In this document: positions 10,664 through 33,905 of the stretch, one piece after another
Position numbering within the stretch: the first letter of the stretch is position 1
How the letters are laid out: every line of letters starts with the position of its first letter
Assembly: GCA_947456055.1 (NCBI GenBank)
Contig: CANGSR010000007.1
Location: 1-36,489 of the forward strand
Direction: 5' to 3'
DNA from: Chitinophagaceae bacterium
GTDB lineage: Bacteria; Bacteroidota; Bacteroidia; Chitinophagales; Chitinophagaceae
Length of the DNA stretch: 36,489 bases
Made by a program: the position numbers and the translations under genes
The notes under the pieces: generated by a model
Told to the model about the DNA's origin: nothing
Database searches by the model: none
The model's input: only the letters and a program-made list of their open reading frames with translations

Positions 10664-10773
10664 ATTTCAATCCGGAATTTGGATAGGTAATTTTATTTGA
10701 AATCTGGGTTGGATAATTGCCCTGCATAGGGTAGTTAAGATGGTATTTGAATCGGTTTTGGACAAAAATGATT

Positions 10774-10796
10774 AACCCCAGCCAATGGCTGGGGTT
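10774..10796 (-). terminator. Terminator-like hairpin downstream of the lectin gene
   Basis: Perfect 10-bp stem AACCCCAGCC (10774-10783) / GGCTGGGGTT (10787-10796), 3-nt loop; minus-strand continuation AATCATTTTTG is T-rich. Confidence 0.6.
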
Positions 10797-10832
10797 AAGT
10801 TCTATGGTATGGTTTAGATTTGGTATAGCGAA

Positions 10833-10860
10833 CTTATTACTTTGTGAAAGAAGTAATAAG
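10833..10860 (-). other. Second hairpin immediately 3' of the lectin stop codon
   Basis: Perfect 10-bp inverted repeat CTTATTACTT (10833-10842) / AAGTAATAAG (10851-10860) with 8-nt loop. Confidence 0.5.
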
Positions 10861-10865
10861 GGGGA

Positions 10866-11687
10866 TTAGGCTCCTTCTGATGTTCCTTTAAAACCAATTG
10901 GGCCTTCACCAGCATAAGTGCAAGTGCCATTGTTGTTCTTAATATCCAGAGCGTGAATGCGTTGGTTATCACGGCCACCAATTAGCCATTGGCCAGCAGC
11001 ATGCCAAGGAGCACTAGAACCACCCCACTGGTTTTGAACATTGTATGTATTGCCCATTACCCATGTGGCCTTAACGCCAATTGGGCCTTCGCCAGCATAT
11101 TCCATTGCGCCATGTAGATTATGGCCATCGCCTGTAAGATTGATGAAATTAACACCTTGGTTGTCACGTGAAGTTAAAATCCATGTACCACCAGCATGCC
11201 AAGGAGCGGCGCTACCACCCCATTGATTCTCAACATTATCATGTTGTTTTGTAGTATTATTAGCCTTGAAACCGATAGGGCCTTCACCAGCATAGGTGTT
11301 AGTTCCTGCTAAGTTATGGCCATTGTCATGTGAAGTAACATGTAAAGCTACACAACGTTGATTGTCACGAGCACCAATTACCCAATGACCACCATAGTGC
11401 CAAGGAGCACTAGGACCACCCCATTGGTTCTCGGTATTGTAAGTATTGCCACAGATTAAAGTAGCCTTAAACCCGATAGGACCTTCACCTTGGTAAGTGA
11501 TAGTGCCATGGAAGGTGTGACCATTGTCATCTGATTTGATATCAATAGCTACTAAGCCCTGATTGTTACGATAACCTAAAACCCAAGCACCGCCTTCGTG
11601 CCATGGAGCCTGATCGCCACCCCATTGATTTACTACATGATAATTGTACATAAAAAAGTGAAAAAATGTTGTTGATTTCCTACTCAT
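10866..11687 (-). CDS. OAA/MBHA-family (Oscillatoria agardhii agglutinin homologue) mannose-binding lectin, four tandem repeats
   Basis: Four repeats of (V/T)xNQWGGxxAPWHxGGxWxxxxRxNQ...TYxGEGPIGFK, the hallmark of the OAAH lectin family. 273 aa, the same four-repeat organisation as Myxococcus MBHA. Start may instead be the internal ATG at 11651 (MYNYHVVNQWGG). Confidence 0.93.
   Translation of the reverse strand: MSRKSTTFFHFFMYNYHVVNQWGGDQAPWHEGGAWVLGYRNNQGLVAIDIKSDDNGHTFHGTITYQGEGPIGFKATLICGNTYNTENQWGGPSAPWHYGGHWVIGARDNQRCVALHVTSHDNGHNLAGTNTYAGEGPIGFKANNTTKQHDNVENQWGGSAAPWHAGGTWILTSRDNQGVNFINLTGDGHNLHGAMEYAGEGPIGVKATWVMGNTYNVQNQWGGSSAPWHAAGQWLIGGRDNQRIHALDIKNNNGTCTYAGEGPIGFKGTSEGA
10869..11651 (-). 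repeat. Four tandem ~65-aa lectin repeats within the CDS
   Basis: R1 11457-11651, R2 11256-11456, R3 11061-11255, R4 10869-11060; each carries NQWGG..APW and GEGPIG(F/V)K. Confidence 0.92.
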
Positions 11688-11693
11688 TTATTT

Positions 11694-11804
11694 AGGCTTT
11701 TCGGATTCCGCCCCTGCTTTTAACGCCTGTGCAGCCAGGCCCGTTGATTAAAGTGGTAACAGAACTCCACCGTTTGCAAACTATTTTTTAGTGGCTTTAA
11801 GCCT
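11694..11804 (-). ncRNA. Putative structured 5' leader of the lectin mRNA (candidate cis-regulatory RNA)
   Basis: GC-rich island in AT-rich intergenic DNA. Closing helix AGGCTT (11694-11699) / AAGCCT (11799-11804) encloses hairpins GCCTG/CAGGC (11725-11729/11736-11740), GTGG/CCAC (11753-11756/11767-11770) and CGG/CCG (11702-11710). No named RNA family recognised. Confidence 0.35.
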
Positions 11805-22584: not shown

Positions 22585-22977
22585 TTAGTCTTCCTTAGCA
22601 TCAAACCATACTTCTTTGGTTTCGTTCCAGTCGCCGCTATAGTTGATGGTGAGTTCTTCGCCTGCGTCTATATCCCGGATGGTTTGGATATAGATGGACT
22701 GGTCTTCGTAAATCATGAAGTATTCGCAATTGGATGTGTAGGAATGGTTGTAGATGGGCACCCAGCCCAGGGCCATGCAGCATAGGTTTTGGCCATCGGG
22801 CTGCCATTCAAATATATAATCGTGAAGCAGGGTTTGATCCAGTAGAGAGCGGTCTTTCTCGCTCATTACAATAACCGGTGAGGTTTCAATAATGGTGTCG
22901 GCAGGGATATTTGTATGGGTAAATACTCCCCTTCCTTTGTTAGCGGTTTCACCTATATACAATCTGACATCAGACAT
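22585..22977 (-). CDS. SET domain-containing protein
   Basis: NKGRGVFTHTNIPADTIIETSPVIV, YNHSYTSNCEY, IRDIDAGEELTINYSGDW: SET core motifs including NHS..NC and GEELTINY. Confidence 0.9.
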   Translation of the reverse strand: MSDVRLYIGETANKGRGVFTHTNIPADTIIETSPVIVMSEKDRSLLDQTLLHDYIFEWQPDGQNLCCMALGWVPIYNHSYTSNCEYFMIYEDQSIYIQTIRDIDAGEELTINYSGDWNETKEVWFDAKED

Positions 22978-28139: not shown

Positions 28140-28283
28140 CTGATAACTATCAATGCAATAGCTGCTAATTATCAGTTATAATTAGAATATATAATTTGAA
28201 ATTTGCAGTTAAACCCGATGGTTTATGGTGGAGTTCTATTATTAAGGTAATGTCAGCTTTTGGTGTGATTTAAATTGTTTATT

Positions 28284-31200
28284 ATGCAGAATGTTTTTGA
28301 TGTATACAAGGCTGTAGTTGATAATATTGAAGACTTTGCCATTTTGCAAATCGATTCTGAAGGGATAATTACATTCTGGAATAAGGGAGCGGAGCGTATC
28401 AGGGGGTACTCAACCAACGAAATGGTGGGCAGCCATTTCAAAATACTATTTACCGGTGAGGAATTAGAAAATAACATCCCTGAAAAATTAATAGAGGAAG
28501 CTACAGAAAAGGGGCACTCGTCCTACCAGGGCTGGAGAACCCGAAAGGATGGTTCCCTGTTTTATGGTGACGTCGTATTTACGGCACTTTTTGATAAGGA
28601 TAATACATTGACAGGGTATACCAAAGTGGTGCATGATATTACCGATTCTATAAATTCAATTGATACAGGTAATAATAAAAGTGCATTAGTTAATGATGTG
28701 AAGGATTTGGTATGGAGCGTAGATAAAAAATTTAGGTTATTGGCATCCAATATCCAGTTTGTGGCCCTGGTGGAACAGATAACAGGCAATCATGTAAGAA
28801 AGGGAGATGATCTTTGCCTGGGTTCACTGGGTAAGAAAAAGCTGCTTGCATTCAAAAAATATTATGATAGGGCATTTGCCGGTGAATCATTTACAATTAC
28901 AGATAACATACTTCATCCCTCAGAACAATGGTTTGAAGTAAGTTTCAGACCGGTATTTTTTGAAAACAAGATAGTAGGTGTGGGTTGTATAGGCCATGAT
29001 ATTACTTCAATAAAGCTAGCCGAAAAACTACAGGAGATTAATGAAAAGCGTTATCGCTCACTCATCGAAAATAGTATTGATGGTATTGTTGTTTTATCAG
29101 CCGAATCGAAACCTGTTTTTATTACACCATCAGTTAAGGCGATTGTAGGATATACCCCATCAGAGTTGATGGAGATGAATTTGTTTAGCCTCATTCATCC
29201 TGACGACATTCCCAGGGGCCAGGCCTTGATTGCGGAGGTTTTTAAAAATCCCGGTGTGCCTTTTGCAGGACTTGTTAAGCAAATGCGCCATAAAGACGGC
29301 AGCTGGAGATGGGTGGAATTTACCATCACCAATATGCTTAATGACCCAAACATTAATGGTATTGTAGAAAATTTCAGGGATATAACCCAGCGTAAAAACG
29401 ACGAAATAGCTCTTGCCAAAAGTGAAGAAAGGCTTAATTGGGCACAGCAGATAGCTCATTTGGGCAGTTGGGAATTAGATTGTAAGAAAGGGGTGGCAAT
29501 ATTGTCTGATGAATTATGCAGGATGTATGGTTTAACTACGGATAATAACCAACATCCATTTGAAGATTGGATAGCATATGTGCACCCTGATGACAGGGAG
29601 GCTGTTAGGTCAATTATTGAAAATGCAGATATTAGCAAATTAAACTCTCAATTATCTTTCCGGGTAATCAATGATTATGGGGAGATAAGAAATCACCAAT
29701 TATCAGCCAGGTATATCCTTGATAATGATAAAAACCTTGTACAGGTACAGGGTATAATCCAGGATATTACAGAAAGTGTACACGCAGAAATAAGCAGGCA
29801 ACAAAGTGAAATAAGATTTAAGTCACTAATTGAAAATAGCAAGGAGGGTGTAGCGATACTATCAGTAGAAGGCGATATTATATATATGTCACCCTCTACA
29901 ACATCAATACTGGGTTATACATCTGAGGAAATGTCCAGTATAAATGTTTTTGACTTGGTACACCCTGATGATGTACTACCTTCTTTACAGGCAATTTCAA
30001 AAGTATTAGAAAATCCAGGCATCCCCATGCCTGGGCATACTGGCCGCATGAGGCATAAAGATGGTACATGGAGGTGGATTGAAGCAATTGTTACCAATTT
30101 GCTACACGATCCATCAATTGGTGGTATAGTTGATAATTTTAGGGATGTAACTGAAAGCAAGATAGCTGAAGAGAAAATAATACATGCCAACAGGCTTTAT
30201 TCATTTATTAGCCAGGTTAACAAGGCAATTATACATATAAGAGATGAGAAGCTCCTGCTTAAGGAGGTTTGTAACATTGCAGTAGAAACAGGCAAATTTA
30301 AAATGGCCTGGATGGGAAAGGTGGTAGAGGGTTACAATAAAGTTGAACCATTTATTTCGACCGGTGATACCAATAATTACCTGGATAAAATAGAAATTTC
30401 AATAAATGATAATGTCCCTGAGGGATTTGGACCCGCAGGTAATGCTTACCGGACAGGTAAAAGTTATTTTTGTAATGATATTCAGTCTGAACATAACATG
30501 GCCAGTTGGCAAAAACAGGCCAAAAAATCTGATTATCGATCTAATATATGTATACCTGTCTTTAAGTCAGGCAAAATAGTTTATACTTTCTCATTGTATT
30601 CAGATGAAGTGAATTTTTTTGATAATGAAGAAGTGAAGTTATTGGATGAGGTAACAGCAGATATTTCATATGCTATTGAAGCCATAGAAAGGGATATTAT
30701 GGCAAAAATTGCTGATGAAAAATTGAAGCAAAGTGCCATCCGACTTAAAAAAGCCCAGGAAATAGCGCATTATGGAGCTTGTGAGTTGGATTTTTCAACT
30801 GGTATTGCTACATGGAGCGAAGAATTATGTAAGATTTATGGATTTTCGCCCGAAAATAGGTACTATAATATGGATCAATGGTTCTCTTTTATTCATCCGG
30901 ATGACAGGGAATATGTAAGTAATGTAACTAAAGTTTCTGATGCAACTTTGAATAATGAAGGTTTCTATCATAGAATAATACGTAAAGATGGTCAGGTAAG
31001 GTATCTGAAAACCCAAAGTGTATATGAGCAATCTATTGACGGCAAACCATTAAGGCTTTATGCAGTTTCATTAGATGTAACTGATGTTAAAGAGGCTGAA
31101 GTAAAATTGAATAATGAAAAATTAAAGCTAAAGCAGGCACAGAAAATAGCGCATCTAGGTAGTTGGGAATTTGATAATGTAATTAAAAAGGCGGTTTGGT

Positions 31201-33500
31201 CGGAAGAACATTGTAAGATATATGGTGTTTCAACTGAGAATAATACTTATACATTAGATGCCTGGCTGTCTTTTGTACATCCAGAGGATAGGGAAAATGT
31301 GGAAATGATTATTGGTACCCATTTGCCTAAATACCAAACCCATAGTTTTTACCATCGAATTATTAGGTTGGATGGTAGTGTGAGATTCTTGTACAGCGAT
31401 TCCTATATAGATTATAATAAAGAAGGCCACCCAATAGGTTTTTATGGTATATCTTACGACATCACCGATCTTAAGGCTACAGAAGAAAAACTAGTAAATG
31501 CTAACAGGCTCTTATCATTTAAGAACCAAATTAATTATGCCATATTGCATGCTAAGGATGAGCAGAGTTTATTTAATGAAGCTTGTAGGTGTGGGGTTGA
31601 ATTAGGTAGGTTTGAATTGGCATGGATAGGTAAGCCAAATGTGGAGACCCGTAGGGTGAGGGTAATGGCCCATGCTAATGCTATACAATATGACCTGGAC
31701 TATTTTTCAAATGTCATTTATGATCCCAAAGGCGCACACGCTAGTGTTATGGCAAGCGGCAAACCATATGTGGTAAATGATTTTACACATGAACCGGAGA
31801 ATAGCAATAGGAGAATATTCACCCGCACAAGAGGTTTCGAGTCTATGCTGGTATTACCATTGAGTAAAAATGGACAGACCATTTATACAATGCACTTCTT
31901 TTCAGCAAAAGCAGGCTTTTTCAATGATGATGAAGTGGTAATCTTATCGGAAGCAGCTAAGGATATTTCATTTGCCTTAGATATGTTTGATAATGAGCAA
32001 TTAAGGAAAATAGCAGAGGATAAGCTGAAGCATAGGAATATTAGGTTGAAACAGGCCCAGGAAATAGCCCACTTCGGAGGTGATGAACTGGATTTTTCTA
32101 CGGGTATAAGTCATTGGTCGGAGCAAATGTGTAAAATATATGGTGTTCCTGTGAAAGATTGTCAGCAAACCTATGATTCCTGGTTGTCTTTTATTCATCC
32201 AGATGACTTGGAGAAGGTAACTAAGATCACTAAAGAGGCCGATGAATTGCTGAGTAATGTAAGCTTTTATCATCGTATAATAAGGAAGGACGGACAAGTA
32301 AGGCATATACATACCAGGCGGCATTTAGAGGTCGATGACTTTAACAGGCCTATTGGTATTTACTCGGTAGCTCATGACATAACAGATATAAAAGAAGCAG
32401 AGGAAGCGGCAAAACAATCGGAGCTTAATATAAGGAAAATTGTGGATTTATTGCCTCAAAGTATTTTTGTGAAAAATACTGCCGGTGAATATGTATTTGC
32501 AAATAATAGTTTTGCGCAACTTGTAGGGTTGAATGAAAGTGAGATTAAATCGAAACAGTTAACTGAGATAATTCCTCCTGGTAATGATATACTTAAGTTA
32601 ACTAATCATGAAATGGAGGTATTGAAAAGGGGGCAGCCATTAACAATACCAAACTACGTATTTGTAGATAATGAAGGTAAATTGCATGTTTTTGATATAA
32701 CTAAAGTGCCTTATGTATTGCCGGGTAGTAGTGAAAAAGCCATCCTGGGAATATGGAGTGATATAACCGATAAGAAAAATGCTGAGTTGGAAAGGAATAA
32801 TATGGTTGCCGATATTATGTTGCGTAATCAGGACTTGGAACAATTTTCGTTTATCGTGTCGCACAATCTAAGGGCGCCAGTTGCCAATGTAATTGGTATT
32901 ACAGATTTATTGCTTAATAAAGATTTCGATAAAAATGAGGAGCGGGATTTCTTGCTTATGCTCTCGAGCTCGGTAGGTAAACTAGATAATGTAATTAAAG
33001 ATCTCAATTATGTGTTGCAATATAAGCATGAGGTGAACGAAAGGCGGGAAAATATTAGTTTCGCACTATTGGTTAGTGAGGTGAAAATTAGTATTCGTAA
33101 GTTGTTTAAGAATGAAGATCTTAAAATTATCAGTGATTTCACATCAGTAAGTGAAATGTTTACAATAAAGAACTATCTTTATAGTATATTTATGAATTTA
33201 ATATCCAACAGTATTAAATACCGACAGCTTGATAAAAAACCAGTAATAGAAATTATCAGCAAAAAGGTGAATAACACGATTGAAATTACTTTCAGAGATA
33301 ATGGGATGGGTATTGATATGGTGAGAAAAGGTGACCAGGTTTTTGGACTGTATAAGCGTTTTCATACTCATACAGAGGGTAAAGGTATGGGCTTGTTTAT
33401 GGTGAAAACCCAGGTTGAAGCCTTAGGAGGTACTATTAGTGTGGAAAGTGAAGTAAATGTAGGAACGACATTTAAAATATTATTTGGAAATATACAATAA
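28284..33500 (+). CDS. Giant cytoplasmic multi-PAS/GAF sensor histidine kinase (about 9 PAS, 2 GAF, HisKA, HATPase)
   Basis: Repeated PAS/PAC motifs (HPDD, NFRDIT, HDITD), two GAF-like blocks (GKFKMAWMGK; GRFELAWIGK), HisKA FSFIVSHNLRAPVAN, N-box NLISNSIKYR, G1 FRDNGMGID, G2 GKGMGLFMVK. ORF-track start 28275 is TTG; ATG is 28284. Confidence 0.95.
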   Translation: MQNVFDVYKAVVDNIEDFAILQIDSEGIITFWNKGAERIRGYSTNEMVGSHFKILFTGEELENNIPEKLIEEATEKGHSSYQGWRTRKDGSLFYGDVVFTALFDKDNTLTGYTKVVHDITDSINSIDTGNNKSALVNDVKDLVWSVDKKFRLLASNIQFVALVEQITGNHVRKGDDLCLGSLGKKKLLAFKKYYDRAFAGESFTITDNILHPSEQWFEVSFRPVFFENKIVGVGCIGHDITSIKLAEKLQEINEKRYRSLIENSIDGIVVLSAESKPVFITPSVKAIVGYTPSELMEMNLFSLIHPDDIPRGQALIAEVFKNPGVPFAGLVKQMRHKDGSWRWVEFTITNMLNDPNINGIVENFRDITQRKNDEIALAKSEERLNWAQQIAHLGSWELDCKKGVAILSDELCRMYGLTTDNNQHPFEDWIAYVHPDDREAVRSIIENADISKLNSQLSFRVINDYGEIRNHQLSARYILDNDKNLVQVQGIIQDITESVHAEISRQQSEIRFKSLIENSKEGVAILSVEGDIIYMSPSTTSILGYTSEEMSSINVFDLVHPDDVLPSLQAISKVLENPGIPMPGHTGRMRHKDGTWRWIEAIVTNLLHDPSIGGIVDNFRDVTESKIAEEKIIHANRLYSFISQVNKAIIHIRDEKLLLKEVCNIAVETGKFKMAWMGKVVEGYNKVEPFISTGDTNNYLDKIEISINDNVPEGFGPAGNAYRTGKSYFCNDIQSEHNMASWQKQAKKSDYRSNICIPVFKSGKIVYTFSLYSDEVNFFDNEEVKLLDEVTADISYAIEAIERDIMAKIADEKLKQSAIRLKKAQEIAHYGACELDFSTGIATWSEELCKIYGFSPENRYYNMDQWFSFIHPDDREYVSNVTKVSDATLNNEGFYHRIIRKDGQVRYLKTQSVYEQSIDGKPLRLYAVSLDVTDVKEAEVKLNNEKLKLKQAQKIAHLGSWEFDNVIKKAVWSEEHCKIYGVSTENNTYTLDAWLSFVHPEDRENVEMIIGTHLPKYQTHSFYHRIIRLDGSVRFLYSDSYIDYNKEGHPIGFYGISYDITDLKATEEKLVNANRLLSFKNQINYAILHAKDEQSLFNEACRCGVELGRFELAWIGKPNVETRRVRVMAHANAIQYDLDYFSNVIYDPKGAHASVMASGKPYVVNDFTHEPENSNRRIFTRTRGFESMLVLPLSKNGQTIYTMHFFSAKAGFFNDDEVVILSEAAKDISFALDMFDNEQLRKIAEDKLKHRNIRLKQAQEIAHFGGDELDFSTGISHWSEQMCKIYGVPVKDCQQTYDSWLSFIHPDDLEKVTKITKEADELLSNVSFYHRIIRKDGQVRHIHTRRHLEVDDFNRPIGIYSVAHDITDIKEAEEAAKQSELNIRKIVDLLPQSIFVKNTAGEYVFANNSFAQLVGLNESEIKSKQLTEIIPPGNDILKLTNHEMEVLKRGQPLTIPNYVFVDNEGKLHVFDITKVPYVLPGSSEKAILGIWSDITDKKNAELERNNMVADIMLRNQDLEQFSFIVSHNLRAPVANVIGITDLLLNKDFDKNEERDFLLMLSSSVGKLDNVIKDLNYVLQYKHEVNERRENISFALLVSEVKISIRKLFKNEDLKIISDFTSVSEMFTIKNYLYSIFMNLISNSIKYRQLDKKPVIEIISKKVNNTIEITFRDNGMGIDMVRKGDQVFGLYKRFHTHTEGKGMGLFMVKTQVEALGGTISVESEVNVGTTFKILFGNIQ

Positions 33501-33506
33501 AGTAAA

Positions 33507-33905
33507 ATGGTAGCGCAGACTAATTATGTAGTAATTGATGATGATCCAATAAACAATCTTATTTGCAATAAGAATCTTCAATTATTATTCCCAAATGATG
33601 ACATAAGGACTTTTACAGATCCGGTGGAGGGATACGATTATATTGTAGATAAGTATAACCAACCTGAAACAGGGAGTATTTTATTCTTAGATATTGATAT
33701 GCCATTTCTGAACGGATGGGATATTTTAGAGAAATTTGCAGGGCTACCAAATATCTCAAATGACAACTTTAAGATTTATATTCTTACTTCTTCTATAGCC
33801 AATGAAGATAAAAAACGGTCTAACAGTAATCCACTCGTGTCAGGGTTTATCGAAAAGCCTTTGAATATGTTTCAGTTGAAACGACTGTTTCCTGAGGCGA
33901 ATTAG
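33507..33905 (+). CDS. Receiver-only (CheY-like) response regulator
   Basis: VIDDDPINNLI acidic pocket, phospho-acceptor FLDIDMPFLNGWD, YILTSS and FIEKPL; starts 6 nt after the kinase stop. Confidence 0.93.
   Translation: MVAQTNYVVIDDDPINNLICNKNLQLLFPNDDIRTFTDPVEGYDYIVDKYNQPETGSILFLDIDMPFLNGWDILEKFAGLPNISNDNFKIYILTSSIANEDKKRSNSNPLVSGFIEKPLNMFQLKRLFPEAN

Follow-up and report, generated by a model that had tools for sequence, protein, structure and literature searches.

A four-repeat OAA-family lectin gene behind a DUF805b RNA hairpin in a Chitinophagaceae genome

Lectins of the OAA family are sugar-binding proteins that clump cells and have mostly been studied as antivirals. Two forms are of interest for comparison: OAA, PFL and PTL consist of two repeats folded into a single barrel, whereas Myxococcus xanthus MBHA (4fbr), Burkholderia oklahomensis BOA (4gk9) and Solieria filiformis SfL-1 (7umj) consist of four tandem repeats and two barrels. 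According to the PFL paper (PMC3447791), what the family does physiologically has yet to be clarified. In this work, we analyzed an OAA-type gene within a window (the whole stretch of 36,489 nt under analysis) from a Chitinophagaceae genome and compared both the lectin and the RNA element that precedes it, DUF805b (RF02914), with these described systems. The features of the locus are as follows.

10866..11651, minus strand: OAA-family lectin gene, 261 aa from the likely ATG at 11651, as judged from Pfam, NCBIfam, PDB, fold and dN/dS
11457..11645, minus strand: repeat 1 (SBD)
11259..11447, minus strand: repeat 2 (SBD)
11064..11237, minus strand: repeat 3 (SBD)
10878..11051, minus strand: repeat 4 (SBD)
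11677..11714, minus strand: DUF805b RNA (Rfam RF02914), hairpin and GAGUAGG, 25 nt before ATG 11651
11715..11794, minus strand: upstream leader common to other genus genes behind the element, unrelated ones included
10772..10798, minus strand: terminator-like hairpin 3' of the lectin gene, whose stem the relative L017 retains despite a pair change

Membership in the OAA (OAAH) family was defined by tandem repeats of ~66 residues matching PF17882 or NF050073, and the minus-strand ORF at 10866-11687 (273 aa) contains four such repeat copies. The earlier note had claimed four repeats of the OAA/MBHA type and assigned the protein to the OAAH family, and both claims held in the profile and homology searches: the OAA sugar-binding domain PF17882 matched with 8.3e-70 in four stretches, each repeat above the cut-off; the OAA lectin model NF050073 scored 343 bits with a cut-off of 150; and the top PDB match was Myxococcus MBHA (1.3e-108). 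Because the NF050073 score lies so far above its cut-off and is accompanied by the Pfam and PDB matches, chance resemblance is excluded. The lectin is a genuine member of the known OAA family, rare in Bacteroidota, and in itself another member of that family and not a new kind of protein.

An AlphaFold model of the lectin (mean pLDDT 74), built on a shallow alignment of four genus sequences, contains 20 strands, with one OAA-type ten-stranded barrel for every two repeats, and superposes on SfL-1, BOA and MBHA with TM scores of 0.94, 0.91 and 0.89, respectively; the barrels that the earlier note expected from structure prediction were thus obtained. In PTL, the residues that contact the glycan or support the contact form two sets, W10, G11, G12, R95, Q98, E123, G124 and P125, and W77, G78, G79, R28, Q31, E56, G57 and P58 (PMC8166773). 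All of these were found in barrel 1 with identical numbering, and their counterparts were found in barrel 2 (W144 with R227 and E249; W209 with R162 and E188), such that the series W, G, G, R, Q, E, G, P is complete in 4/4 of the published-type mannose-binding sites. As all four sites are complete, the lectin should be tetravalent, and the conserved residues suggest that it binds high-mannose glycans (PMC8166773). Compared with MBHA, BOA and SfL-1, the lectin is alike in its four tandem repeats, two barrels, every glycan-contact residue and the lack of a detected signal peptide, with 54-58% identity in the structural alignment; however, its repeats 3 and 4 are shorter in a strand-loop region, and it sits behind a DUF805b RNA in a Bacteroidota genome. 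Compared with the one-barrel OAA, PFL and PTL, the repeat and the site residues are the same and a single barrel superposes at 1.1-1.2 A, but the repeats number four instead of two.

The start at 11687, with which the ORF had been read before, was not retained, as its first 12 codons overlap the DUF805b RNA, and translation very probably begins at ATG 11651 instead, to judge from the following comparison. The 50 bases 5' of ATG 11651 showed zero differences from L017, the closest relative, whereas 39% of the synonymous sites of the lectin gene differ between the two; the same 50 bases overlap RF02914; and the equivalent later Met is the start in two other genus sequences, the G026 lectin and the G023 remnant, 24-27 nt past GAGTAGG. 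Taken together, the invariant bases, the overlap with RF02914 and the equivalent Met make ATG 11651 the likely start, and 'MSRKSTTFFHFF' would then probably belong to the untranslated leader. The dN/dS of the lectin gene relative to L017 (89% identical) was 0.13, which indicates that the gene is under purifying selection. Downstream, the terminator-like stem shows a change from an A-T to a G-C pair in L017, and a second terminator-like hairpin lies upstream at 12280-12244, after the thiolase gene. Thus, of the previous description as a lone gene between terminator-like signals, the hairpins (10798-10772 and 12280-12244) stood, but regulatory isolation did not, since the RNA is common to other genes. 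An inverted repeat (CTTATTACTTctttcacAAAGTAATAAG) was also observed at 10838-10865 of the window, just past the lectin stop codon, and is unchanged in L017.

The RF02914 match at 11714-11677 scored 39.2 bits, above the gathering score of 35.6, and is conserved in L017. DUF805b is a named Rfam cis-regulatory family, and it may act on the lectin mRNA. Like the Rfam family, the element before the lectin has the hairpin, the conserved loop and the GAGUAGG tail; the differences are that a lectin follows here, whereas in another genome (L187) the element precedes DUF805, the gene it is named after, and that some genus copies carry a longer shared leader. The genome under study contains 15 RF02914 matches at E <=1e-5, 11 of them above the gathering score, and the element was found in 27 of the 35 genus genomes (up to 31 copies each) and in 94/398 genomes of the phylum sample. 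At all four genus lectin loci or remnants, it lies 24-27 nt before the start codon, the copy of the G026 lectin scoring 35.3, slightly below the gathering score. We gathered 144 motif copies with a search pattern in which GAAA(A/G) and GAGTA(A/G)G were the only fixed parts, a few of whose matches are clearly due to chance; in 116 of the 144, an ORF of >=60 aa opens with ATG 12-40 nt downstream, compared with 8.3% for positions drawn at random from these loci, and the distance from motif to start is narrow, as a rule 15-35 nt. The collecting pattern left the stem unconstrained; across the 122 distinct copies followed by an ORF, 410 of the 488 pairs that it could form are present, versus 244 +/- 10 when the 3' arms were reshuffled, an excess whose exact size should not be over-read because the shuffle control ignores relatedness. 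G-C, C-G, A-T and T-A pairs were all observed in the inner stem, and the stem varies by paired changes whereas loop and GAGUAGG stay the same, such that the copies form a covarying hairpin just 5' of coding sequence, as in RF02914.

A subset of the elements, those of the lectin leaders included, share ~75 nt of extra leader upstream of the hairpin, even across unrelated genes (alignment A2: L020, L091, L095, L090, L108, L109 and others). As a structured RNA, this longer leader was rejected, with weak covariation and folding no better than that of shuffles; it may be a promoter, a protein site or the result of recent copying of leaders. Separately, a tandem double motif with two GAGTA(A/G)G ends ~30 nt apart, possibly a two-hairpin form of the element, precedes a single ORF at L053, L096, L111, L112, L114, L123, L126, L128 and L143.

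The genes behind the element (tagged genes) number ~20 per genome. Besides the lectin, about 15 are tagged in its own genome, including several unknowns along with two sulfatases, a lipase-like protein of class 3, a papain-family protease that carries DUF346 repeats, an FG-GAP repeat protein and an Rv2525c-like protein resembling glycoside hydrolases. In other genomes of the genus, the element also precedes genes for kelch-repeat proteins, for more lipases and for GG-leader peptides with LanC-like cyclase genes after them; although the leader match of these peptides was slightly below the cut-off, their position beside the cyclase genes makes them probable lanthipeptide precursors. Elsewhere in the phylum, the tagged genes encode DUF805, a DUF2589 protein, a subtilase, a nitrile hydratase alpha-like peptide and short GG-type peptides. 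They share no single pathway, and many are unknowns; the model of one tagged 490-aa protein family was too poor for use (pLDDT 52). At L100 (G019:C119:49500-60200), five tagged GG-leader peptides follow one another, with LanC-like cyclase genes interspersed among three of them, which to judge from the gene content is probably a lanthipeptide cluster under DUF805b elements. In the literature searched, which excluded the paper that defines DUF805b, no description of a link between OAA lectins and DUF805b was found; we do not claim to be the first to report the gene set.

The lack of a signal peptide on the lectin, already remarked upon before this analysis, was reproduced by a heuristic hydrophobicity test. 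By the same simple rule, which is not SignalP and was applied to the tagged proteins alone, without a genome-wide background, a Sec signal was absent from 92 of the 121 tagged genus proteins and present in 25, and the remaining 4 scored as GG leaders. Many of the leaderless members appear, from our reading of their domains, to be of extracellular type. As for an export system that could serve them, none was found: the T6SS sheath family PF05943 was absent from all 35 genus genomes (0/35), and the tail-sheath family PF04984 from G000, G019 and G026, of which G019 and G026 are 97-99% complete and G000 83%, such that the negative result is weaker for G000. Given the absence of both families, contractile systems fail to account for the leaderless proteins of these motif-richest genomes.

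The closest relative, the 89% identical lectin of L017, comes from a genus MAG labelled 'uncultured Bacteroidetes bacterium', and the gene order thiolase-lectin-folK-TolC is common to the window and this second genus MAG (G023), with 84-89% protein identity, which bears out the earlier claim of a Bacteroidota genome. True OAA members were observed in 3 of the 35 genus genomes. No further genome with an OAA lectin was found in the 399-genome order sample, none in the 398-genome phylum sample beyond two weak PF17882 matches, and none in a further 398 genomes of another order, a search in which the tool warned that nothing had registered. Neither weak match was read as an OAA lectin: that of G079 is a single partial match in a large surface-type protein, and that of G177 (21 bits) lies in a protein with the look of TIR and a formylglycine enzyme. 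In the G026 lectin (48% identity), some positions have changed, with P replaced by Q or E and W17 by F; its gene is located at another genomic place, near ribosomal protein genes. G023 contains a second locus (L019:3743-3961 (-), G023:C898) with a one-repeat remnant that ends out of frame and retains the RNA element, and no further lectin sequence was detected past it in any frame over 1 kb. A mobile-element origin was considered and rejected, no relatives being found among plasmid records, among phage records or, by a scan that detects close relatives only, among viral contigs. An empty site was not demonstrated, as the other genus members have no match to thiolase or lectin within <=1.5 kb of folK.

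With moderate confidence, we proposed that the gene encodes a tetravalent high-mannose lectin that is one item of an RNA-tagged, co-regulated set of probable exoproducts. The product would be soluble and built of two beta barrels of the OAA type, with all four predicted sites for branched (high-mannose-type) glycans complete, and it might cross-link glycan-bearing surfaces, as is thought for MBHA and BOA. Its mRNA would carry the DUF805b hairpin ~25 nt 5' of the start codon, as would those of unrelated genus genes, many of them for extracellular-type enzymes, repeat or lectin-like proteins and putative lanthipeptide precursors, and the element would most likely co-regulate the tagged set post-transcriptionally, through translation or mRNA stability. 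The lectin may then be released without a Sec signal, by lysis or another route, and could attach to glycans belonging to other organisms or to the matrix around it. A broader version, that across the phylum DUF805b identifies a regulon controlled after transcription, whose members are exoproducts with antagonistic or social roles (lanthipeptides, lectins and hydrolases without a leader), possibly with a common Sec-independent release, and that the Bacteroidota OAA lectins are part of it, is speculative and in our view unlikely.

The chief rival to this proposal is a possible, if less probable, reading in which the protein is an ordinary OAA lectin, perhaps horizontally acquired, that serves as an adhesin or in self-aggregation, and in which the RNA, a 5' UTR element common in the genus, does not connect this gene functionally with the others. 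The patchy distribution described above agrees with this, as does the wide occurrence of DUF805b across the phylum before very varied genes; however, all four lectin loci, at three genomic places, carry the element that only ~20 genes per genome carry, and their leaders are similar to the ones in front of other tagged genes. It is improbable that the motif is instead a DNA recombination site of a cassette system with the lectin as one cassette: tandem arrays of unrelated tagged genes do occur (G000:C32, C104, C348; G019:C54), and some leaders are common to unrelated genes, but the narrow spacing to the start codon and the many single copies speak against such a site, as does the conservation of loop and GAGUAGG with paired changes in the stem, with the reservation that a folded DNA site would covary too.

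Two further explanations have even less room than the cassette site. That the lectin is cargo of a contractile injection system (T6SS or of extracellular type) carrying leaderless effectors would suit a protein that, like most tagged proteins, has no Sec signal, but the sheath-family searches described above have already largely refuted it, and we consider it highly improbable. Least credible is contamination of the contig from a myxobacterium or proteobacterium: the nearest solved relatives are Myxococcus and Burkholderia proteins and the source genome is a fragmented MAG, but the same gene order in an independent genus MAG has already refuted it, and the GC content is even over the window and a Bacteroidota RNA element sits before the gene.

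Under our preferred reading of the lectin as part of a co-regulated tagged set, its position behind a named and widespread RNA element means that whatever acts on that RNA should control the lectin too, and the rest of the tagged set hints at what the lectin works together with. Elsewhere in the window, the plus strand encodes at 28275-33905 a histidine kinase of 1741 aa that has two GAF domains and many PAS domains, and a response-regulator-like gene follows it. The SET domain is better known in eukaryotic methyltransferases; a small stand-alone SET-domain protein of 130 aa (PF00856, 8.7e-17) is encoded at 22588-22977 on the minus strand.
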